12,854 nt of DNA from Candidatus Latescibacterota bacterium (GTDB taxonomy: Bacteria > JAAXHH01 > JABIQT01): the NCBI GenBank assembly GCA_018667995.1, contig JABIQT010001086.1, positions 1-12,854 of the forward strand, read 5' to 3'. Numbering within the stretch: position 1 is the stretch's first letter; every line of letters begins with the position of its first letter. Of this stretch, positions 1-12,854 are shown piece after piece. The position numbers and the translations under genes were made by a program. The notes below the pieces were generated by a model, which worked only from the letters and a program-made list of their open reading frames with translations, had not been told where the DNA came from and made no database searches.

Positions 1-295
1 ACGGCTTCGAACCGCCTTTTGGGGGCACCACCACCCGGAGCAACTCATTGGCACGCCGAGCTGCAACCAACTCTGTTTCAAGCTCGACGATCCTCCTGTT
101 CGCTGCGGCCAACCCGATGCTCTCCACCGACGACGTTCCCGGCTTGCGCCCGGTGTCGACCAGATGCTGGTTCCACCAGTTGTAGATCGTCGCTGCCGTC
201 ACCTCCAGACCGCCAGCGACCTCAGTCACCGACATGCCAGACTCGATCAAATCGATCACACGGCGGCGATACTCGAACGGATAGAACCTCGGCAT
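1..295 (-). CDS. IS3-family transposase OrfA (partial, runs off left edge)
   Basis: The visible protein starts MPRFYPFEYRRRVIDLIESG and has the helix-turn-helix typical of Transposase_8/IS3 OrfA (about residues 8-45, including TAATIYNWWNQH). A leucine-zipper-like region follows (about residues 60-88, with LETELVAARRANELL). OrfA binds the IS ends and is the N-terminal part of the OrfAB transposase. The ATG at 295 is chosen because GAGGAGG lies seven bases upstream and the terminus precedes it. No OrfA stop is reached before base 1. In the -1 frame the last bases read PKRRFEAV, the start of a typical OrfB, so the fused product would form by frameshifting at bases 17-23. The catalytic DDE domain is outside the window. 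Confidence 0.88.
   Translation of the reverse strand, partial: MPRFYPFEYRRRVIDLIESGMSVTEVAGGLEVTAATIYNWWNQHLVDTGRKPGTSSVESIGLAAANRRIVELETELVAARRANELLRVVVPPKGGSKP
17..23 (-). promoter_or_regulatory. Programmed -1 ribosomal frameshift site of the IS3 transposase
   Basis: On the minus strand the bases read C CCA AAA in the OrfA frame, an exact X XXY YYZ slippery heptamer. The OrfA frame continues GGC GGT TCG. The -1 frame continues AGG CGG TTC GAA GCC, encoding RRFEA, which matches the usual OrfB start (PPKRRFEA). The position at the end of the OrfA leucine zipper is where IS3 elements normally shift. Any stimulatory structure would be beyond the left edge. Confidence 0.7.
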
Positions 296-3334: not shown

Positions 3335-5170
3335 TCAACGGCCAAAGTTCTTGTTGTGATGCGCGGCATCAGCCGTCCGATGGATGACTCCCTTGATCTG
3401 GGACAGCAAATCTGGTGGACAACGATTGAACTGGTCGTTAAACCCATTGATAGCGGATTGAACTTCGACACTACGCCACCAAGCGTCCGTGTTGGTCCAA
3501 ATCTCTCCAATGAACTCGGCAGCATGAACTGGTTCAGGGTGGTAGACGCCGACCGATTCGAGTGCGCGAAATGCCCCGTCTGCTGAGTCCCTGAGTTCCC
3601 AGTGGACGGGGTCCCAAAGAAGAATCGTGGGGATACCTAGGTGGAAGGCCTGAAGAAAAGTTGTGGAGTTAGCGGTGGCAACATAGAGGCGACAATCTTC
3701 AACAAGTTTGAGCAACGGCCTTTCTCCAGCGTCAACTTTGACGTTGGGATGTTGCGACTCCCACCGCTCCACTTGGTCCCATCCCAGATCACTAGAGACA
3801 GTCCGGATCACAAGGCTTTTTCTTACATATTCCGGTAACGATTCGATGAACTGACTCTGGAAATCGAAATAATTGAGCCATTGGCTGCTAATAATGCCAG
3901 CAACGGCTTCCTTCGCACAGCGAGTCATCACGTGGCTGACTAGAACGGCATTAGGACGCTCTGAGAATCCCCCCTTAAGTGGCTGGACCGCTGGAAACTG
4001 GCCGACCGGCTCGTATCGATGACCGTTGGATTCCGTCCACCCCCATGTAAGAGAGACATCGCTGATGTTCCTCTCATGCTCCTCTGTCGGATTAAAGGCA
4101 CTAGTGCCGAAGTGCCCACCATGCTGTCCGATGATCAGGGGAATTCCCCGCTCCACCTTTTCCGCTGCCCAGGCGTTAAAAACATCGCCCGAGCAGTGTG
4201 CGTTAGAAGTCCAGATTGCCCGGGGATTCGTGGGCCATGGAAGACTGGCAGAAGTGTGCTCCAACTGCTTGAAGCCTTCAAGCAAGACAATTGGCAGGTC
4301 CTGCCAGATCTCACCTGTCACCGCTGATTCAAATGGTGAGTCGACCTGCAAGTCAAGCGTCAGTGCCGCTCGGCGGTCACGCTCAGGCAAAATCCCTTGA
4401 CCGATCCGCGGAAGGGCCGGTCGGATGCAAGGCACCTGGCCGAGCATTACTCCCAGTCGGAGTTCCTCTCGCGGGTCAAGATAGGTCTGGTACATGACCA
4501 CATCGTTCTCCTGAGAGACTCGGACGGCAACCGTGTTGCACCGGTCAAAGAGGCGGTGCACGAAGGGCCTCAAGGGTCTCGGTTGTTCCCTGGCGCATTC
4601 CGGTTCTGACAACGGAGGTCCAGACTGCAGTCGATCGTCGAACCCCCTCAGACTGAGGATGCGGGCGAACAGGGCGTGGTTCCATGTGTCCGACACCAGG
4701 TAAGCGTTGGAATGGGTGGTATCGGTGGGTGGAGGAAGGGAAAGCGCTCCGTCCAGAACAATCGAGGTGTCAAAGCCCACGGCTTCTGCAGTTCGGATGA
4801 CTTCGAAGCGATCGAACAGGATATGAAGGTATCTCCAGAGCCACGGTCCAACCACCATCCGCCAGTACCTGACCCCATGGTCAGTGTGATGGACTTCGTT
4901 CAGGCAGCGGTGGAGACTCAGCAGGGCGCGTTCAAATAATTCTGTGAGGTATCGGTAGTCCTCAGCTAGTTTGGCGCGAGCGTCCCAGTGGTAGGGGACA
5001 ACCTGGCACGGAAGACCATTCCATAGGCTGCGTCTAGAAAAACGTTGACACCATTGGCCGAGGAACAGGATCTGTCCTTTCGCATCCGGCCATGACTCCT
5101 CCAGCGACGTGGTCACCAGGATCGTTTCGGAACGATCTCGCATTGAAGAGATTTCACCCTGCGACATCAT
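3335..5170 (-). CDS. LIC12162-family putative glycosyltransferase
   Basis: This 611-residue protein has the N-terminal signature of the LIC12162 family: TSLEESWP (21-28), ILFLGQWC (34-41), PYHWDAR (59-65), NEVHHT (91-96) and RYWRMVVGPWL (101-111). The C-terminal third resembles a GT-B donor-binding half, with a region around ANSTTFLQAFHLGIPTILLW. The family is known from O-antigen and surface-glycan loci, and its exact reaction is not well established to my knowledge. Neighbouring NeuB suggests a nonulosonate or similar acidic sugar as donor (inference). Two adjacent ATGs open the frame at 5170, with only a weak ribosome site. The ATG at 5143 (residue 10, MRDRSETILV) is an equally plausible start. 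A stable hairpin lies 30 bases upstream. No membrane segments are apparent, so a cytoplasmic or peripheral location is expected. Confidence 0.82.
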   Translation of the reverse strand: MMSQGEISSMRDRSETILVTTSLEESWPDAKGQILFLGQWCQRFSRRSLWNGLPCQVVPYHWDARAKLAEDYRYLTELFERALLSLHRCLNEVHHTDHGVRYWRMVVGPWLWRYLHILFDRFEVIRTAEAVGFDTSIVLDGALSLPPPTDTTHSNAYLVSDTWNHALFARILSLRGFDDRLQSGPPLSEPECAREQPRPLRPFVHRLFDRCNTVAVRVSQENDVVMYQTYLDPREELRLGVMLGQVPCIRPALPRIGQGILPERDRRAALTLDLQVDSPFESAVTGEIWQDLPIVLLEGFKQLEHTSASLPWPTNPRAIWTSNAHCSGDVFNAWAAEKVERGIPLIIGQHGGHFGTSAFNPTEEHERNISDVSLTWGWTESNGHRYEPVGQFPAVQPLKGGFSERPNAVLVSHVMTRCAKEAVAGIISSQWLNYFDFQSQFIESLPEYVRKSLVIRTVSSDLGWDQVERWESQHPNVKVDAGERPLLKLVEDCRLYVATANSTTFLQAFHLGIPTILLWDPVHWELRDSADGAFRALESVGVYHPEPVHAAEFIGEIWTNTDAWWRSVEVQSAINGFNDQFNRCPPDLLSQIKGVIHRTADAAHHNKNFGR

Positions 5171-5278: not shown

Positions 5279-5668
5279 TCATCGGGAAGAGTCAATAAGT
5301 GCCAACCCGCGAACGAGGTCATCAAGGGCCTCATCGGTATCCAGCCATGTGACGATTGAGATCTGGTCCTCATCCAGGTACCGCTGGAGTTCACCCGTCC
5401 GACCGTCTTCGACTAGGAATACGTAGAACTTGCCGAACCGGTTTCGTACAAGCACAGCGTGAAGGCCGTTATCCAAGAGTCGCCCATTCAGCGATGGAGT
5501 GGCGTAGAACCCCCAGTCCTTACGGACTACGTCATATTCGGACTCTCCTAGAAGGAAGGTCACCTGTTCATCCGGTTCTAGGTGAAGAGTGCCGCAATCG
5601 CGAATTTCCCTTGATGCCTCAACTCCGACGGTGAACGTCCGTGGTGGCTTGTTCTCAGAAAACTCCAA
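5279..5668 (-). CDS. Small protein of unknown function in the glycan operon
   Basis: I do not recognise a named domain in this 129-residue protein. It is acidic, has no signal peptide or membrane segment, and contains the tracts EYDVVRKDWGFYATPSLNGR and NRFGKFYVFLVEDGR, then RYLDEDQISIVTWLDTDEAL near the C-terminus. These well-formed alternating segments look like a compact alpha/beta domain. The start is TTG at 5668, supported by GGAGG eight bases upstream at 5677-5681. It lies 76 bases after the amidotransferase gene and 108 before the LIC12162 gene, in the same direction. Its position between an N-acetyl sugar amidotransferase and a transferase suggests an accessory role for one of them, which is only inference from context. 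Confidence 0.72.
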   Translation of the reverse strand: MEFSENKPPRTFTVGVEASREIRDCGTLHLEPDEQVTFLLGESEYDVVRKDWGFYATPSLNGRLLDNGLHAVLVRNRFGKFYVFLVEDGRTGELQRYLDEDQISIVTWLDTDEALDDLVRGLALIDSSR

Positions 5669-5744: not shown

Positions 5745-6866
5745 CTATCGCCACCAGTCCTCTGAGACAACGTGGCCAGGTATTCGCCAGCCTGCAACCT
5801 CCCGAACCCAGATGGCCTGATTTCGGAATTGTTCTGCGTGATCCATAAATTCCTCAACCGACCATCCGACGAACTGGGCGAAAGCAGCAATGTCCCCGTC
5901 GGGCCTCTGCTCACCCAACTCTTCCAGGATAGAGAGGGCGTCATCGCGGCTCATTCGTCTGTTGCGGATCTCGAGTGAAAGATTGTCGAATAACCGTGTA
6001 AAGCCGAACTTGTACCATTTCAACCAATGATGGACAGAGATGAACGCGTCATCAATGTCAGTGTGAGCGTAATAGCCGGTACGAGGACCCTCTGAGCGCC
6101 GTTGCAAACCATGAGACTCAGCAATCGTCGCTGTCTCAGCAGGGTCCCACCGGAAGTAGTTGCCAAGGAAAACACCGCGAGTCCCAGCCGTGTGCAGTTC
6201 AGTACTAGTCGGGCCGAAGTAAGCGGAGAGTTCCTTAGCCGTGAAGCCTTCAGCAATCCAGTCAGCCGCGGTGGTCCCGTGTGTGACGCCATAGCGCTGG
6301 ATCCACTCTTCGTCGAGCAGGAAAGCCATCCGCCCCTCTTCGGCGCCTCCGTATTCGAACGCTGAGTTCTCCCCCCAGACGATAAGGGGGATGTCAAACC
6401 GTGTGGCAATCACTCGTGGGATATTGAAGATGGCCAAGTGCATTGGGATCGCAGTCGATCCATAGAGTTTGAAAGCCCTCTGTGCAAAGCGACGCTCAAT
6501 ACTTGGGTTTATCTGGTAGTCAATGTGGTCGACTCCCAGTTGGACAAGATTGTCGAGATTGCGTTGACCGAGTTCGGTCCGGCCAGGGGGCCTCCAAGTA
6601 ACAGCCAGGGGAGTAAGGCCATACTCAAGGCACTTGAGCACCTGCCACGTGCTGTCTTTTCCTCCACTTACTGGGATGACACAGTCATACCTCTCAGTTC
6701 GACTGATGGCTTGTTCGACTATCTCCCGAAACGCCTCTACGCGACCTGGCCAGTCGATCGACTCCTTCGTGCGGTGTGAGAAGCAGGCGGTGCAGACACC
6801 ATCTTCACCGATCTCGAGATTTGGCCTGGTATCCGGAAGTATGCACTCTTGGCAGAAACAGATCAT
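5745..6866 (-). CDS. N-acetyl sugar amidotransferase (WbpG/PseA/LegX type)
   Basis: This 373-residue protein begins with a CxxC...CxxC zinc-knuckle (Cys5, Cys8, Cys25, Cys28) around PDTRPNLEIGEDGVC. The ATP-pyrophosphatase P-loop SGGKDST follows at 67-73. NYFRWDP and the C-terminal HHWLKWYKFGFTRLFDNLS segment are family hallmarks. Members adenylate the acetamido oxygen of an N-acetyl sugar and introduce nitrogen, giving an acetamidino group. Some (WbpG/WbuX) need HisH- and HisF-like partners for ammonia; others (PseA) work with none encoded nearby. Neither partner is visible here, while an AsnB-type protein with its own glutaminase domain is encoded 29 bases upstream. The ATG at 6866 has GAGG seven bases before it. 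Family assignment is firm; the sugar substrate is inferred to be a nonulosonate or its precursor. Confidence 0.92.
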   Translation of the reverse strand: MICFCQECILPDTRPNLEIGEDGVCTACFSHRTKESIDWPGRVEAFREIVEQAISRTERYDCVIPVSGGKDSTWQVLKCLEYGLTPLAVTWRPPGRTELGQRNLDNLVQLGVDHIDYQINPSIERRFAQRAFKLYGSTAIPMHLAIFNIPRVIATRFDIPLIVWGENSAFEYGGAEEGRMAFLLDEEWIQRYGVTHGTTAADWIAEGFTAKELSAYFGPTSTELHTAGTRGVFLGNYFRWDPAETATIAESHGLQRRSEGPRTGYYAHTDIDDAFISVHHWLKWYKFGFTRLFDNLSLEIRNRRMSRDDALSILEELGEQRPDGDIAAFAQFVGWSVEEFMDHAEQFRNQAIWVREVAGWRIPGHVVSEDWWR

Positions 6867-6895: not shown

Positions 6896-8725
6896 TTAGC
6901 CGTGCAACTCGAGGAACATGTTGGCATTGATTACATTGAAGAGGAACTTGCTCTCACTATTGCTGAGTAGCCGACCATCACAGAGACCATCGATCGATTC
7001 TCTCTTCACGAAGTCAAAGATCGGCCCGTTCGACAGGGCCGCTCCCGGCGATGCGGTGTCCCGGGTGTCGAGGACGCTCTGGAGCGGCACATTGAAGCCA
7101 ACCTTGCGAGGATTCGAAAGGATCAGGTCGGGGGCGATGCCCTGCATGGCCTTCCGGAGAATTGCTTTTGCCAGGCCATCCTGGATCAGATAGCGGGTGG
7201 GAATGGTTTGGGAGAATTCGAAGAGTTCACGGTCCAGAAATGGTGTCCGGTTCTCAACAGAGAAGAACATTGCATTCAGATCGTCTTCGTGAAGGATAAC
7301 TGGCACGGTTTCATGGAACATTTCATTCAACATTCGGTTACGTAGTAGATCATCCGAGTACGGGAATTCATTGAAGGGTTCGCTCCAGTCCTCGTGGAGG
7401 AATGATCGGAATTGTTGCGATCCATGGAAGAGATGATCGCGGAATCGGGAGTCGTCAATGAATAGTCGAGGGTTCTGGAGGTCGGGGTTCCGCACCACGG
7501 GTCGAACATTCCGGTTCCATCCTTCCAGGGCGTCCTGGTGCGCCCGCCTATCATTGCGGACCTCGTAGAGGTAGGCCAGATGGTGATCAAAATACCCACT
7601 GAATAACTCGTCAGCCGCCGTTCCGCTTACTGAGATTCGGTATCCGTCTGCAGCGATCGCCTCCATTAGACGCCAGTGCACGTAATAGGAAAGTGTGTAG
7701 ATTGGCGCGTCGTGGTACTCGATCAGCGTTCGCAAACCGGGAATGAAGCCATCAGTCGTGAGTTGGAGAAATCTGTGACCGATACCCAACTCGGAGACAG
7801 CATGCTCCACCATCTCCAACTCCTCGTACCTTTCGTCAGTGTTTAGGATTGTGTACCCATTCACCTCGTATCCGAAGATTCGCTTGGCGATACTGATGAG
7901 GGACACGGAATCGATGCCGCCACTCATGCAAAAGGCCATTGGCACGTCGGCCCGGAGCCTAAGTTCGACGGCGTGTAACAGTCGGTCGCGGGTGCCAGCA
8001 ACGGCCTCCTCAACAGTCATATCCACTTGCTGAGCCAGTTTGGGAATCCAGTAGCGATCCAGGTGTTCTGAACCGTAGGGATCGATTCTGAGAGTGGTTC
8101 CCGGGGGGAGTTCCTCGACACCGGCGAAGAAACTATGAGGTTTCTTATAAAGCGACTTATAACTATTGGTCATGTAACGGAGAAGGTGGTCGGTGTTTAC
8201 CGCCAGCCTCTTCCCTATGAGCGCCACGAGGGTCTTGATCTCGGAGGCGAAGTAAAGACCATCAATATCACGGTATAGGTATAAGGGCTTCTCGCCGAAT
8301 CGGTCCCGAGATAGAAGAACTGTTTCTGCCGCTTCGTTGAATGCGGCAAAGGCCCACATGCCCTCACAACCGTCTAGGCCGTCGGCCCCCTCCGAATCGA
8401 GGACTGCGGCCAGGACCTCGCTGTCTGACTCTGTCAGGAGTCTGGTGCCACTTCGCTTCAGACGATTCCCAACTTCGACGTAGTTGTAGAGTTCGCCATT
8501 AAAGGAAAGCCAGGTGCCACCAGAACGGATTGGCTGGTCAGCCCGACGGGCAAGATCGATGATGGAAAGGCGGCTGTGAAGAAGGCAGACGTGCCTACCG
8601 GAGGACAACTCCCAGTGCTTCCAGGACGCAGCATCGGGACCACGGCGACGCATTGACTCAAGAGCACGGTCCAGTCGCTCTACTGGAGGGTTTCGATTAC
8701 CTACATGACCTGCTATTCCACACAC
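6896..8725 (-). CDS. Asparagine synthase (glutamine-hydrolysing) family amidotransferase
   Basis: With the GTG at 8725 as start, the mature protein begins with Cys2 (then GIAGHVG), the N-terminal nucleophile required by class II glutaminases. GGAGG lies seven bases upstream. The longer ATG frame from 8743 would bury this cysteine and is rejected. The 609 residues hold the glutaminase domain (RRGPDA; SRLSIIDL; FNGELYN at 75-81) and the synthetase domain with the ATP P-loop SGGIDS (268-273) and SGTAADELFSGY. AsnB homologues in O-antigen loci amidate uronic-acid carboxyls instead of aspartate. Linkage to a sugar amidotransferase suggests a glycan substrate, or a supply of ammonia, rather than asparagine synthesis (inference). 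It follows a 206-base gap, so it may head its own transcript. Confidence 0.9.
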   Translation of the reverse strand: MCGIAGHVGNRNPPVERLDRALESMRRRGPDAASWKHWELSSGRHVCLLHSRLSIIDLARRADQPIRSGGTWLSFNGELYNYVEVGNRLKRSGTRLLTESDSEVLAAVLDSEGADGLDGCEGMWAFAAFNEAAETVLLSRDRFGEKPLYLYRDIDGLYFASEIKTLVALIGKRLAVNTDHLLRYMTNSYKSLYKKPHSFFAGVEELPPGTTLRIDPYGSEHLDRYWIPKLAQQVDMTVEEAVAGTRDRLLHAVELRLRADVPMAFCMSGGIDSVSLISIAKRIFGYEVNGYTILNTDERYEELEMVEHAVSELGIGHRFLQLTTDGFIPGLRTLIEYHDAPIYTLSYYVHWRLMEAIAADGYRISVSGTAADELFSGYFDHHLAYLYEVRNDRRAHQDALEGWNRNVRPVVRNPDLQNPRLFIDDSRFRDHLFHGSQQFRSFLHEDWSEPFNEFPYSDDLLRNRMLNEMFHETVPVILHEDDLNAMFFSVENRTPFLDRELFEFSQTIPTRYLIQDGLAKAILRKAMQGIAPDLILSNPRKVGFNVPLQSVLDTRDTASPGAALSNGPIFDFVKRESIDGLCDGRLLSNSESKFLFNVINANMFLELHG

Positions 8726-8751
8726 GGGCAATCCTCCGCCCACTCTCCGCT

Positions 8752-8782
8752 CGACCTAGACGAGGTCGGGTCATAGGGACCC
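8752..8782 (-). promoter_or_regulatory. Two adjoining small hairpins in the asparagine synthase leader
   Basis: Bases 8752-8757 pair with 8763-8768 (CGACCT/AGGTCG, five-base loop), and 8768-8772 pair with 8778-8782 (GGGTC/GACCC, five-base loop). They share base 8768 and lie 27-57 bases before the GTG start, between the candidate promoter and the ribosome site. Stems this short occur by chance, so a regulatory role is only possible. Confidence 0.25.
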
Positions 8783-8854
8783 ACATTGACATTTTCGATA
8801 TTGCGTCGTCTCAGTTGAAGACGATCACTTCAGACACCATAAGATAGTTTCCAA

Positions 8855-8882
8855 ATTGTATTTCGCTTGCCATTACTATCAG
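8855..8882 (-). promoter_or_regulatory. Candidate sigma-70-type promoter for the asparagine synthase transcript
   Basis: On the minus strand CTGATA (8882-8877) and TACAAT (8860-8855) are separated by 16 bases, giving 4/6 and 5/6 matches to the consensus -35 and -10. The site lies in the AT-rich 206-base gap between the GNAT and the asparagine synthase genes and would give a leader of about 120 bases. AT-rich DNA yields such matches by chance, so confidence is low. Confidence 0.3.
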
Positions 8883-8931
8883 ACACACAGCAGTATTTCT
8901 CACAATATAAAACTATCAAGATGTCGAATTT

Positions 8932-9672
8932 TCATCTTATGAGCTTTCCATTTTCGCAGTGGGCGTGTAGTATGTACTCGCTGCTACGCACACGAAAACC
9001 TTGGTTCTCATAGAAACGAATCGATGAGGTATTAGCTGCCTGGGTCCCAACACGTAGAACTCGGCACTGATCAAGCCACTCCTTTTCGAAGTACGAAACC
9101 AGCGACGCTCCAACCCCCAGCCCTCTGGCATTCCTGTCAACACCGATTAGATCGATCACTGCGATTTCTCCTTGCCGGTCAGACGTGATCATCGTCGCGA
9201 GAAAGCCAACCGCCTGTCCTCTCAGATAAGCAACATAGAGGACGTCGCCACGGGTGCCATCAAAGTAACTCTCTACCCACCGACGTTTGATTCGGTCCGC
9301 GATGTCATTCGGGATCCGCGGATCAAGGTGAAAGCGGGAGAACTGGAAACTAGATTCTGCAATCCGTAACACCTCTTCTCGATCCGCGGGATTTACGCGC
9401 CTTACTAAGTGTGAATGTTCTTGGTGGTGAGTTCGGGCAGTGGACTCGAGGGAGATCCTAATATCAACGGGGAAGAACCCAGAGTTGAGGAGTTGCCAAC
9501 AGGGCTCGACAGCGCTCGTGTCAACCATGCAGAAGATCAAGACATGATCGCCACTGCCAGCAACAACTTGAAGAGCGGATCGGACTTCAGATTCTAGTGT
9601 ATCAAGAGGGTAATCTAGGCGCTGAACCTCCCAGCCAGTGCTAGCCGTCAACCAAAGATCAGGAGTCAGCAT
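8932..9672 (-). CDS. GNAT-family sugar N-acetyltransferase (WecD/RffC-like)
   Basis: The protein has a C-terminal GNAT domain: SSFQFSRFHLDPRIP (about residues 107-121 from the chosen start), then DVLYVAYLRGQAVGFL, then the acetyl-CoA pyrophosphate loop RNARGLGVG with RGLGVG at 183-188. The SRFHLDP tract and overall plan resemble WecD, which N-acetylates a dTDP-4-amino-sugar. I choose the ATG at 9672 (246 residues) because GAGG lies nine bases upstream. An in-frame TTG at 9708 has no ribosome site. The gene follows the duplicated epimerase tail. In this pathway it would acetylate an amino group of the nonulosonate precursor using acetyl-CoA in the cytoplasm (inference). Confidence 0.82.
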   Translation of the reverse strand: MLTPDLWLTASTGWEVQRLDYPLDTLESEVRSALQVVAGSGDHVLIFCMVDTSAVEPCWQLLNSGFFPVDIRISLESTARTHHQEHSHLVRRVNPADREEVLRIAESSFQFSRFHLDPRIPNDIADRIKRRWVESYFDGTRGDVLYVAYLRGQAVGFLATMITSDRQGEIAVIDLIGVDRNARGLGVGASLVSYFEKEWLDQCRVLRVGTQAANTSSIRFYENQGFRVRSSEYILHAHCENGKLIR

Positions 9673-9740
9673 TACAAGAGACCTCGACAGTTCCTCAACT
9701 GGTACCAACCAGTGCTGGGAGGATTCATGGCCAGATCGGC

Positions 9741-9815
9741 CTTTCTAACCAACTCGGCTTCGATACCAATAGAGGTATTGACGAAAGCCCTTCTCAAGGG
9801 GCCATAACGGCTCAT
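9741..9815 (-). pseudogene. Duplicated 3' tail of an epimerase/dehydratase gene
   Basis: Read on the minus strand, bases 9815 to 9760 match 12829 to 12774 at 53 of 56 positions. In the same frame they encode EPLWPLEKGFRQYLYWYR, against EPLWSLEKGFRQYLDWYR in the gene at the right edge, followed by SRVG and a TAG stop at 9743-9741. Only the last two dozen or so codons are present and no start is available, so this is a relic. It lies in the gap between the deacetylase stop and the GNAT start. Confidence 0.8.
9760..9815 (-). repeat. 56-base repeat, copy A (partner at 12774-12829)
   Basis: This is a direct repeat of 12774-12829 with three mismatches (at 9771, 9781 and 9801). Outside the block the flanks of the two copies are unrelated, so both ends of the shared segment are sharp. 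The two copies bracket the neuB, formyltransferase and deacetylase genes. Confidence 0.9.
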
Positions 9816-9837
9816 TATTGTTACAGCCATCCAGCAG

Positions 9838-10731
9838 TCAGACCTTTGAGCCATCAACCAAGATCCGCTTCAACTCAAACGGATCCGACCGGAACTCATT
9901 GAACCCTTCGATGGCAGTTGGGCAGCACCTGACGCCAAACTGTCTTAGTACCCGGATTACCTCCGGTGAGTAGCAGTTGGGCATGCCCTCTGGATACGAG
10001 TGGTGAATAACCGGATGACCGACCACCCTTTCCAGCAGGTTCACGCTCGTACGTATTTCGTCAACCAACTCATCATGCCCCAAGTGGGAAAGAATTCGGT
10101 GAGTGTGACCATGCCCCCCTACGGTGAACAGAGGTTCCTTGTCTAGGTCCCGCACCTGATCCCATGTCATTTTTGCGTCCAACTCTCCGCAAAACTCAAT
10201 TTGCCGGGGGCCAATCGCTTTAACCAGATTACTAGCGTATTCATAGGGATCGATGGCTGGATCAGTCTTGACTTTCTGTCGGATTTCCTCCATAAGTGCT
10301 TGCTTTTCTTTAGCAGACTCATAATGCCCGTCAACACCCTGGCCGACTCCTCGAATATCCACTACAGTCTCATCTTCCAACGCGGACTCGATCTCATCCG
10401 TCCAGGAGCGCAGATCAGTTCCAATAAACCCTGTGGACACGTAAAACGTCGCAGGAACACCAAGATCGGTCAAAATGGGGGCAACTATTGAAGCGTTGTT
10501 CTCAAATCCGTCATCGAATGTGACAGCAAAAGGTGACGGAGGAAGATCCGAGTCGCCCAAACACGCCTTCAAGCATTCATCCATTGTCACTGGTTGATGC
10601 AACTGAAGTGTTTCTCTCATAAATGTCACAAACTGGTCAATGCTCAGATGCTTCCGAGTGTAGTTCCTGACCATATGGCGGTGTTCTCTGACAACTCCAT
10701 GGAAAAGAAAAATACGCATTTTTCCATTCAT
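9838..10731 (-). CDS. Polysaccharide deacetylase (NodB homology domain)
   Basis: This 297-residue protein has the NodB signatures TFDDG (71-75, Asp73/Asp74), the metal-binding H-x3-H in GGHGHTH (His207, His211) and SYPEG (245-249). Family members are metal-dependent carbohydrate esterases that remove N- or O-acetyl groups. There is no signal peptide or transmembrane segment, so it is probably cytoplasmic and acts on a sugar nucleotide or lipid-linked precursor rather than on finished wall polymer. The ATG at 10731 overlaps the TGA of the formyltransferase gene (ATGA). A second in-frame ATG at residue 5 is also possible. Tight coupling to a formyltransferase suggests that removal of an acetyl group prepares an amine for formylation (inference). 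Confidence 0.88.
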   Translation of the reverse strand: MNGKMRIFLFHGVVREHRHMVRNYTRKHLSIDQFVTFMRETLQLHQPVTMDECLKACLGDSDLPPSPFAVTFDDGFENNASIVAPILTDLGVPATFYVSTGFIGTDLRSWTDEIESALEDETVVDIRGVGQGVDGHYESAKEKQALMEEIRQKVKTDPAIDPYEYASNLVKAIGPRQIEFCGELDAKMTWDQVRDLDKEPLFTVGGHGHTHRILSHLGHDELVDEIRTSVNLLERVVGHPVIHHSYPEGMPNCYSPEVIRVLRQFGVRCCPTAIEGFNEFRSDPFELKRILVDGSKV

Positions 10732-11468
10732 ATTCTATCTATTTCGCGGCGCGCACAATCACGTCTCTGAGTGTAGGAATAAAACTTTTTCTGACAATCA
10801 CTCTTAAGGGCGCTTGGCATTGCGGAATAGTAACGGCCCTCCTCTCCCTGCGGGGCAGATGGGATATCTCGTCCGTCACCTAGGATCGCAAGCGTCTCAG
10901 TAAACAGTCTCAGACAACTTTCAGTATTGGCAGCTCGGAGTTGGTGAATATCCATATTCTGGGAGATCTCTATAGCCTCTGAGCAAACTATAGGTCCCGA
11001 ATCATAATTCAGATCGACATGGTGAAGAGTAGTAATCAGATTCTCAAAGTCTGAGTGATAGATAGTCCAATAATGACTGTCTAATCCTCGATACTTTTCA
11101 GGGTTGCCGCCATGCAGGTTTAAGCAGGCTTGACTGGGGATTACTATTGTCTCAGGGAGAAGGCGCCGAGTTCCAAAAACTATTATCAATTCCGGTCGGA
11201 TTTGACTTATCCAGCCTTGTGTCACCAGATCATTGACGCTAGAAGTTGTATGAGTCTGCGTTAAGGTTGAAAACTTTGGAATATCCTCCTTGAAGAAATA
11301 CTCCTTCTCATATTCGTCTCGTACTACCTCAAAAGGGTGAAATGTAGAAAATGTCGGCCCTCGCGGCGGTGCCTCGAGAACAATTCCGGAAAGACAGTCA
11401 GTCTCGGACAACATCGCGGAGAAGTAGAGATGATGAAGTGTGTCGGTAGTAAGTAGGACCACTTTCAT
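10728..11468 (-). CDS. GART/Fmt-type formyltransferase, probably for an amino-sugar
   Basis: This 246-residue protein carries the N10-formyltetrahydrofolate-dependent formyltransferase core: IIVFGTRRLLPETI, then NLHGGNPEKYRG (117-128, with Asn117 and His119), and Asp156 in LNYDSGPIV, matching the Asn-His-Asp triad of the family. It is shorter than methionyl-tRNA formyltransferase (about 310) and lacks its C-terminal OB domain, so a sugar amine is the likelier acceptor, as in dTDP-4-amino-sugar N-formyltransferases. It starts four bases after the NeuB gene and overlaps the deacetylase gene. The coding sequence is visibly AT-richer than NeuB, suggesting a different origin. The acceptor is unknown. 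Confidence 0.83.
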   Translation of the reverse strand: MKVVLLTTDTLHHLYFSAMLSETDCLSGIVLEAPPRGPTFSTFHPFEVVRDEYEKEYFFKEDIPKFSTLTQTHTTSSVNDLVTQGWISQIRPELIIVFGTRRLLPETIVIPSQACLNLHGGNPEKYRGLDSHYWTIYHSDFENLITTLHHVDLNYDSGPIVCSEAIEISQNMDIHQLRAANTESCLRLFTETLAILGDGRDIPSAPQGEEGRYYSAMPSALKSDCQKKFYSYTQRRDCARREIDRI

Positions 11469-11472
11469 GCAA

Positions 11473-12489
11473 TCACCAGGACTGAACCATTTCCTCTGTA
11501 AAGGGCTCGCCCCTCTCTACCGCTCGTGTAGTGGAGTTTCCGATCAATAGTTCTTCCTGCCCTGGTAGCAAACCATTCCGCGGGCGAAGCCAAGTCAGGT
11601 CATCGGACTCTATTCGATAGCCTTCGGGAAGATCTCTCGCGGCAGCGATGCTTCGCCGAATCGAAAGCGCCGCTTCTCGCTCGCATGGAGCGACACTCTT
11701 CTCGCCGTCACCCATGACCTCCTCCATCTCCCTGATCGCCCCAGCGAGCTTTCGCATCTCGGTTGGATCCGCTGATATCTGGTGATCCCGAAAGGACGAG
11801 TAATCCTTGTCCAGCGTGAAGTGCTTCTCGATGAGCCGCGCTCCGAGGGCCACCGCACCAAGACAGGCGGTGATCCCAAGAGTGTGATCCGAGTAGCCAA
11901 TTTCACATTCCGGGATTGATTGCAGGCTGGTAATCGCTCGGACATTCGCGAACTCTGGCAGCGCCGGATAGGCGGAGACACAGTGCAGGAGGGCCAACTC
12001 CCCCTGGTGGCCACGGCTCCCCCACTCACGGTGAACCAACTCTGCGATCCGCTTGCATAACTCCAAGTCGGTAAGGCCGGTGGAGACCACAAGAGGCTTA
12101 CCGGTAGCACAAACTGATCGCAGAAGCGGAACAAAGTCATTGTCTCCCGACGCGACCTTGAAAGCGTCAACATGCGGTATCAGGCCCTCGACACTCCTCA
12201 GGTCGAAAGGGGTGGACAAATATGCTAAGCCCAACTCGCGCGCGTGAACCGAGAGCTCGGCGAACTCGTCGATAGTCAACTCAAATGACTTGAGCCGGTC
12301 AAACCTCTCTGTGTCAGCGCCAGATACATAGTCCTCCGTCCGGAATGTTTGAAACTTGACAGCGTCTACACCCGAATCTCCCGCCGCGGTGATCATCTCC
12401 TTAGCTACCGAGAAAGATCCCTCGTGGTTGTTGCCGATCTCCGCGACGAGGACGACTCTTGCTTCGGTATCTAGTTTGCCGATGATCAA
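11473..12489 (-). CDS. NeuB-family nonulosonic (sialic/legionaminic-like) acid synthase
   Basis: This 338-residue protein has the full NeuB architecture: a TIM barrel (about 10-265) with AEIGNNHEG (16-24), KFQTF (45-49), KVASGDN (111-117), HCVSAYP (169-175), GYSDHT (198-203), EKHFTLD (221-227) and DHQISADP (235-242), then a C-terminal SAF/antifreeze-like domain (about 280-338). NeuB enzymes condense phosphoenolpyruvate with an N-acyl-hexosamine to form a nine-carbon ulosonic acid. Sequence alone does not tell neuraminic, legionaminic and pseudaminic synthases apart. The start is TTG at 12489, with a strong AGGAGGAGG sequence ending five bases upstream. It is followed after four bases by the formyltransferase gene. 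This gene gives the cluster its identity. Confidence 0.92.
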   Translation of the reverse strand: MIIGKLDTEARVVLVAEIGNNHEGSFSVAKEMITAAGDSGVDAVKFQTFRTEDYVSGADTERFDRLKSFELTIDEFAELSVHARELGLAYLSTPFDLRSVEGLIPHVDAFKVASGDNDFVPLLRSVCATGKPLVVSTGLTDLELCKRIAELVHREWGSRGHQGELALLHCVSAYPALPEFANVRAITSLQSIPECEIGYSDHTLGITACLGAVALGARLIEKHFTLDKDYSSFRDHQISADPTEMRKLAGAIREMEEVMGDGEKSVAPCEREAALSIRRSIAAARDLPEGYRIESDDLTWLRPRNGLLPGQEELLIGNSTTRAVERGEPFTEEMVQSW

Positions 12490-12699
12490 CTTGTCCTCCT
12501 CCTAGAGGTGAGTGCGGATCTGTCGAGATTGGACTAAATGAGATTCCGACGTTGGCATTCACAGAGAGCTGGCGTGCACACAACCATGTGTTTCCTAGCG
12601 AATGTCGATCTCTGAACGAACCAACTGCGGCCAAGCAGTGCTTGAATGACCACACCAAGCGAATGTCTCATGTACCGCATGCAGGCGAGTTGAGGTCCA

Positions 12700-12722
12700 G
12701 GGGTGGTCACGACCGACACCCC
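12700..12722 (-). terminator. Possible weak terminator hairpin after the epimerase gene
   Basis: GGGGTG (12722-12717 on the minus strand) can pair with CACCCC (12705-12700) across an 11-base loop, 28-50 bases after the epimerase stop at 12750. No U-tract follows. It is the only sign of transcript punctuation in the 260-base gap before the neuB gene. The rest of that gap (12490-12749) shows no gene I can support. Confidence 0.25.
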
Positions 12723-12749
12723 ATCCAGTTGCACGCGACACCCCTGAAG

Positions 12750-12854
12750 CTAGCCACTGACGCTGGGCCGTTCTCGATACCAATCGAGGTATTGGCGAAA
12801 GCCCTTCTCAAGGGACCATAACGGCTCATAACCTAGAAGGGATCGCGCCTTTTC
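12750..12854 (-). CDS. NAD-dependent epimerase/dehydratase (SDR), C-terminal end only, runs off right edge
   Basis: The last 34 codons read KARSLLGYEPLWSLEKGF, then RQYLDWYRERPSVSG and TAG at 12752-12750. KA+-LLGYEP-xxxLxxG-xxxxxWYR is the usual C-terminus of extended SDR sugar-nucleotide epimerases and 4,6-dehydratases. The Rossmann domain and catalytic YxxxK are outside the window, so the substrate is unknown. Upstream of neuB it would supply the hexosamine precursor (inference). Its last codons are duplicated at 9741-9815. Confidence 0.8.
   Translation of the reverse strand, partial: EKARSLLGYEPLWSLEKGFRQYLDWYRERPSVSG
12774..12829 (-). repeat. 56-base repeat, copy B (partner at 9760-9815)
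   Basis: This is the coding copy within the 3' end of the epimerase/dehydratase gene. It matches copy A at 53 of 56 bases, in the same orientation. Distance between the copies is 3014 bases, exactly enclosing three complete genes. Confidence 0.9.

Follow-up and report, generated by a model that had tools for sequence, protein, structure and literature searches.

A duplicated epimerase tail suggests reshuffling of a nonulosonic-acid-type operon in a Candidatus Latescibacterota bacterium

Contig JABIQT010001086.1 of the Candidatus Latescibacterota bacterium assembly GCA_018667995.1 (12,854 bp, analysed whole and called the window below) carries a cluster of predicted sugar biosynthesis genes in which the 3' coding end of a sugar-nucleotide epimerase/dehydratase gene (Epi) occurs twice. 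The two copies enclose genes for a NeuB-family synthase, a formyltransferase (FT) and a polysaccharide-deacetylase-family protein (DAC), and the second copy is followed by a WecD-like GNAT N-acetyltransferase gene. The explanation that we favor, with a probability of roughly 0.6, is that a nonulosonic-acid-type operon of widespread occurrence has been reshuffled in the window, where tandem partial copies underwent complementary loss. On this view the locus reflects the usual rearrangement of operons, and the three enclosed genes are not the switchable cassette that a sequence-only reading of the window had proposed.

The repeat consists of copy B (12774–12829), within the epimerase coding end, and copy A (9760–9815), in direct orientation, 53/56 identical and spaced by 3014 bp; like all genes of the cluster, both are read on the minus strand. 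Its score of 47 compares with 12–15 for the best direct repeats of 20 dinucleotide-shuffled versions of the window, and a genome search (E 2.4e-18) returned no third copy in the 6.06-Mb genome. Copy B reads EPLWSLEKGFRQYLDWYRERPSVSG and copy A reads EPLWPLEKGFRQYLYWYRSRVG, each closed by a stop codon. From B to A, the three base differences give S to P, one silent change and D to Y, and the copies agree without interruption over at most 19 bp. These results confirm the coordinates, orientation, identity and enclosed genes described in the sequence-only reading, as well as its claim that a crossover between the copies would preserve the epimerase frame.

Only the last 34 codons and the stop of Epi are present (12750–12854), because the contig ends 25 bases beyond copy B. 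This piece gave no match in Pfam, for which it is too short, and the remaining Epi body was searched for in the assembly and not found. We identified it through the C-terminus of an orthologous epimerase from another phylum (G038; 53% identity over 30 amino acids, E 3e-6) and by comparison with the corresponding tails in 12 orthologues. Copy A, which has a AGCCGAGTTGG flank, starts 22 nt past the DAC stop and belongs to an in-frame Epi stump of 22 codons without a start codon (9745–9813). Its D to Y change affects a residue for which none of the 12 orthologues has Y, so copy A looks unselected. After these last Epi codons come 72 nt and then GNAT. In G038 the epimerase tail likewise stands directly ahead of the GNAT gene, and copy A matches exactly the look expected of a fragment of an Epi-GNAT border. 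Judged from this layout, it is best read as a scrap of Epi that would still mark the old border between the two genes.

To place this arrangement, we compared it with related loci. The window GNAT protein led to G038, and six loci came from scanning genome contigs with a GNAT alignment; searches with an Epi alignment gave further ones, and a plasmid search added Azospirillum. Gene order was assigned by BLAST, with the proteins of the window and of G038 as references, and Epi orthologues were well separated from paralogues (E <1e-160 versus about 1e-80). Over 12 loci with an orthologous Epi, from several phyla, the usual order is Epi-GNAT-NeuB-(FT-DAC)-AsnB-WbuX, the last two being amidotransferase genes. 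Epi is directly followed by GNAT in 9/12, GNAT by NeuB in all 10 loci having GNAT in the cluster, and FT-DAC lies between NeuB and AsnB in both loci that carry the pair. The more complete of these orders come from a Neomarinimicrobiota locus, L080 (SpsF-Gfo/Idh-DegT-Epi-GNAT-NeuB-FT-DAC-AsnB-WbuX), and a Planctomycetota locus, L084, which has the same order plus a methyltransferase gene between Epi and GNAT and a hexapeptide gene before WbuX. The order Epi-GNAT-NeuB-AsnB-WbuX, without FT-DAC, was found in a Deltaproteobacterium (L060/L083, with a hexapeptide gene before WbuX), Minwuia (L081), Methylocystis (L082), Azospirillum (L101), and in L096, L098, L102 and L103. L097 lacks GNAT (Epi-NeuB-AsnB-WbuX), and L095 has Epi without the cluster. 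None of the 12 loci has GNAT behind NeuB.

The window contains the same gene set (Epi tail, GNAT, NeuB, FT, DAC, AsnB, WbuX and a small conserved protein), with GNAT behind DAC instead of ahead of NeuB. Its transcription order is Epi tail-NeuB-FT-DAC-(Epi stump)-GNAT-AsnB-WbuX-small protein-LIC12162 transferase-further genes. By this comparison of predicted genes, NeuB-FT-DAC is normal content, in normal internal order, of a nonulosonic-acid-type cluster, and the displaced element is GNAT.

This bears directly on the proposal that the trio NeuB-FT-DAC entered as one block between Epi and GNAT, duplicating the Epi tail. Some results speak for it: Epi next to GNAT is the norm elsewhere, the presence of FT-DAC varies among clusters, and FT is AT-rich relative to its neighbours. 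The search for loci in which Epi runs directly into GNAT thus ended as the sequence-only reading had anticipated, no relative with two full epimerases was seen, and its use of the duplicated tail as a recombination border is supported. The discrete cassette fares worse. The contiguous trio is ordinary operon content, occurring in the same order and in the same cluster in two other phyla (L080 and L084), and no recombinase, transposase or other mobility gene lies between the copies, where NeuB, FT and DAC are the only genes. NeuB is present in every GNAT-bearing cluster, so that a recipient Epi-GNAT-AsnB operon without NeuB would already be unusual; the adjacency of Epi and GNAT is itself known from distant loci only, all of which have NeuB after GNAT. 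The GC content at third codon positions (GC3) is 0.64 for NeuB, 0.44 for FT, 0.53 for DAC, 0.53 for GNAT and 0.62 for AsnB. NeuB therefore resembles AsnB more than FT, and the differences within the trio argue against one uniform foreign cassette. We consider insertion of the trio as a unit unlikely; it is possible that the trio was imported on the DNA of a close relative at the Epi gene.

In the reshuffling that we favor, the intermediate would have been ...Epi-(GNAT)-NeuB-FT-DAC joined in tandem to Epi tail-GNAT-NeuB-(FT-DAC)-AsnB..., with the end of DAC abutting the final codons of an Epi gene. That second copy could have come from a local tandem duplication or from an imported Epi...DAC segment of a close relative, taken up by homologous exchange within Epi and illegitimate joining at the other end; we hold local duplication and import to be about equally likely. 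GNAT would then have disappeared from the upstream copy, in which Epi and NeuB-FT-DAC survived. In the downstream copy, GNAT and everything from AsnB onward would have survived, NeuB(-FT-DAC) would have gone, and Epi would have been reduced to the 22-codon stump. The repeat, the order conserved in relatives and the displaced GNAT with a stump in front of it are observed, and the tandem pair, the losses and the direction of events are inferred; no simpler intermediate than a tandem partial pair accounts for the stump as well as for the gene order. Gaps in the window coincide with both predicted sites of loss: 260 bp of non-coding DNA between Epi and neuB (12490–12749), with a Shine-Dalgarno-like AGGAGGAGG ahead of the neuB TTG, and about 190 bp of AT-rich DNA (41% GC) between GNAT and AsnB (8744–8931), where relatives carry NeuB(-FT-DAC).

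Three observations count against this explanation. DNA alignment compared with shuffles, and tblastn with the relatives' proteins, recovered no convincing remnants of GNAT, NeuB or other genes from the gaps (12490–12773 and 8744–8934). The losses must therefore have been clean deletions, even though divergence between the two tails is only 5%. Among the loci found, none comes from a relative close enough to show the intermediate, the shared proteins that were compared being about 32–62% identical to those of the window. Finally, gene trees fail to separate local duplication from import.

In these trees, evaluated with approximately unbiased (AU) tests and with support given as a pair of values, the window GNAT groups with L082, L098 and L103 (98/95.6). 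Forcing the window NeuB into that group was rejected (p 0.019), and pairing it with L098 alone was not (p 0.22). The window AsnB sits among loci lacking FT-DAC; grouping it with L080 and L084 alone was rejected (p 1.4e-6), and letting it join the whole other clade was not (p 0.22). The trees hint, short of proof, at an operon that may be mosaic. They also bear on the idea that a fragment made of the Epi stump and GNAT was inserted between DAC and AsnB, in an operon whose Epi was no longer, or had never been, followed by GNAT. Two events would suffice for this, loss and gain of GNAT, and a GNAT-less cluster does exist (L097). However, GNAT and AsnB of the window both group with loci lacking FT-DAC, the AsnB placement being weak (p 0.22), so that it is not GNAT that stands out as foreign. 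Such an insertion seems rather unlikely to us, if less so than that of the trio.

We also asked how far the junction itself can be trusted. A metagenome assembler might have fused the loci of two strains where DAC meets the Epi tail, and the bin, with 1165 contigs and 4.16% contamination, together with a contig that stops 25 bp past copy B, leaves some room for this. The junction (9816–9840) occurs nowhere else in the genome, however, and the longest exact run common to the copies (19 bp) is below the usual assembly word length, which makes an artefact very improbable. Another idea is that a site-specific integration event at the 3' end of a gene left the tails as its attL and attR; a duplicated gene tail with restored frame does resemble what islands inserted at gene ends show. 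Against this, the segment has no integrase, the copies are not identical and the cargo consists of ordinary operon genes; we regard it as scarcely credible.

Switching between the repeat copies, by which the sequence-only reading would have made glycan N-modification a switchable or swappable module, is unlikely, because the identical run is only 19 bp and excision would remove the core synthase NeuB of the pathway along with FT and DAC. This run falls below the threshold of about 30 bp for RecA-dependent exchange (PMC2884548). No phase-variable alternative state was found in the assembled sequence. A broader version, in which the Epi tail would be a recombination border for trading operon versions among close relatives, FT-DAC an exchangeable pair that swaps the N-acyl group, and both states would coexist in this population and break the assembly at Epi, strikes us as quite improbable. 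The same genome has further NeuB-family genes, located on contigs C1059 and C947. Two of these, both on C1059, are complete; they share only 38% and 32% identity with the window NeuB and belong to another cluster. That locus (L215) is a second cluster of nonulosonic-acid type in the genome and contains two genes of the NeuB family.

Several known processes resemble parts of this history. Tandem duplication with random loss, described mostly for mitochondrial genomes, also changes gene order and leaves a duplicated fragment at one border; here, in contrast, the redundant copies are wholly gone and import is as likely as a local copy. Homology-assisted illegitimate recombination is documented in bacteria (PMC3240628). 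Such events (PMC2884548, PMC3240628) share with our locus one homologous and one illegitimate end and a direct repeat at the border; they differ in that the repeats are mostly under 30 bp, against 56 bp here, and no event between strains is observed for the window. Within three species, direct repeats flank 10–18% of small variable segments (PMC2884548). The present locus shows that the remains of a gene tail can reveal an earlier operon order, and that repeat-flanked blocks need comparison with relatives before they are named cassettes.

The same comparison exposes a surface-sugar operon that is conserved over several phyla, with an optional FT-DAC pair. From its predicted proteins, the cluster would encode a pathway of nonulosonic-acid type that includes amidotransferases. 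It shares with legionaminic- and pseudaminic-type clusters the NeuB synthase, the WecD-like GNAT and the AsnB- and WbuX-type amidotransferases and, in relatives, a DegT aminotransferase, an NAD epimerase/dehydratase and a cytidylyltransferase; dehydratase, aminotransferase and CMP-sugar synthetase genes lie upstream of Epi in relatives, and the window contig ends before that part. It differs from them in having FT and DAC as optional genes and, in the window, a displaced GNAT. FT and DAC together might exchange an N-acetyl for an N-formyl group, by deacetylation and then formylation. An FT alignment that includes the window protein matches the sugar N-formyltransferases PseJ and ArnA by profile; the similarity is distant. 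In the literature we found no description of this cluster with an FT.

The trio comprises NeuB (11473–12489; NeuB and SAF domains, PF03102 at 2.5e-65 and PF08666), FT (10728–11468; closest solved relatives ArnA and PseJ) and DAC (9838–10731). Downstream of the stump follow GNAT (8932–9708, with an ATG likelier at 9672), the AsnB-type amidotransferase (6896–8743, likely GTG start at 8725) and the WbuX-family N-acetyl sugar amidotransferase (5745–6866; TIGR03573, 6e-89). The small conserved protein (5279–5668), without a Pfam match, has homologues behind WbuX in most relatives (35–57% identity), and a LIC12162-family transferase comes next (3335–5170; TIGR04331, 1.9e-129). An Rfam search of the window gave no match, and scans for promoters and terminators stayed at chance level.

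Searches beyond the 12 loci added little. Genomes of the same order (G001–G015) gave no Epi orthologue and no real GNAT relative, and plasmids gave only distant DAC relatives besides the Azospirillum cluster, which has the normal order. IMG/VR yielded no DAC relative and Epi relatives at 50% identity or less only. Two viral contigs from IMG/VR (L136 and L138) hold an adjacent DegT-epimerase pair, 42–44% identical to the G038 epimerase, followed by apparent phage genes. In a Hydrogenedentota genome, a GNAT relative (L061:12125–12844) lies behind three related large open reading frames, apart from the Epi orthologue of that genome. When direct repeats of L082, L097 and L102 were inspected, none was at a gene tail of the cluster. 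Towards the ends of the cluster, L097 (1038–1115/1995–2072) and L102 (3396–3431/4370–4404) have single unrelated genes bordered by short direct repeats in non-coding or gene-edge DNA; these resemble common intergenic repeats. Past the 3' end of the window cluster, an OrfA-like transposase gene (PF01527; positions 2–295, minus strand) is truncated by the contig start.

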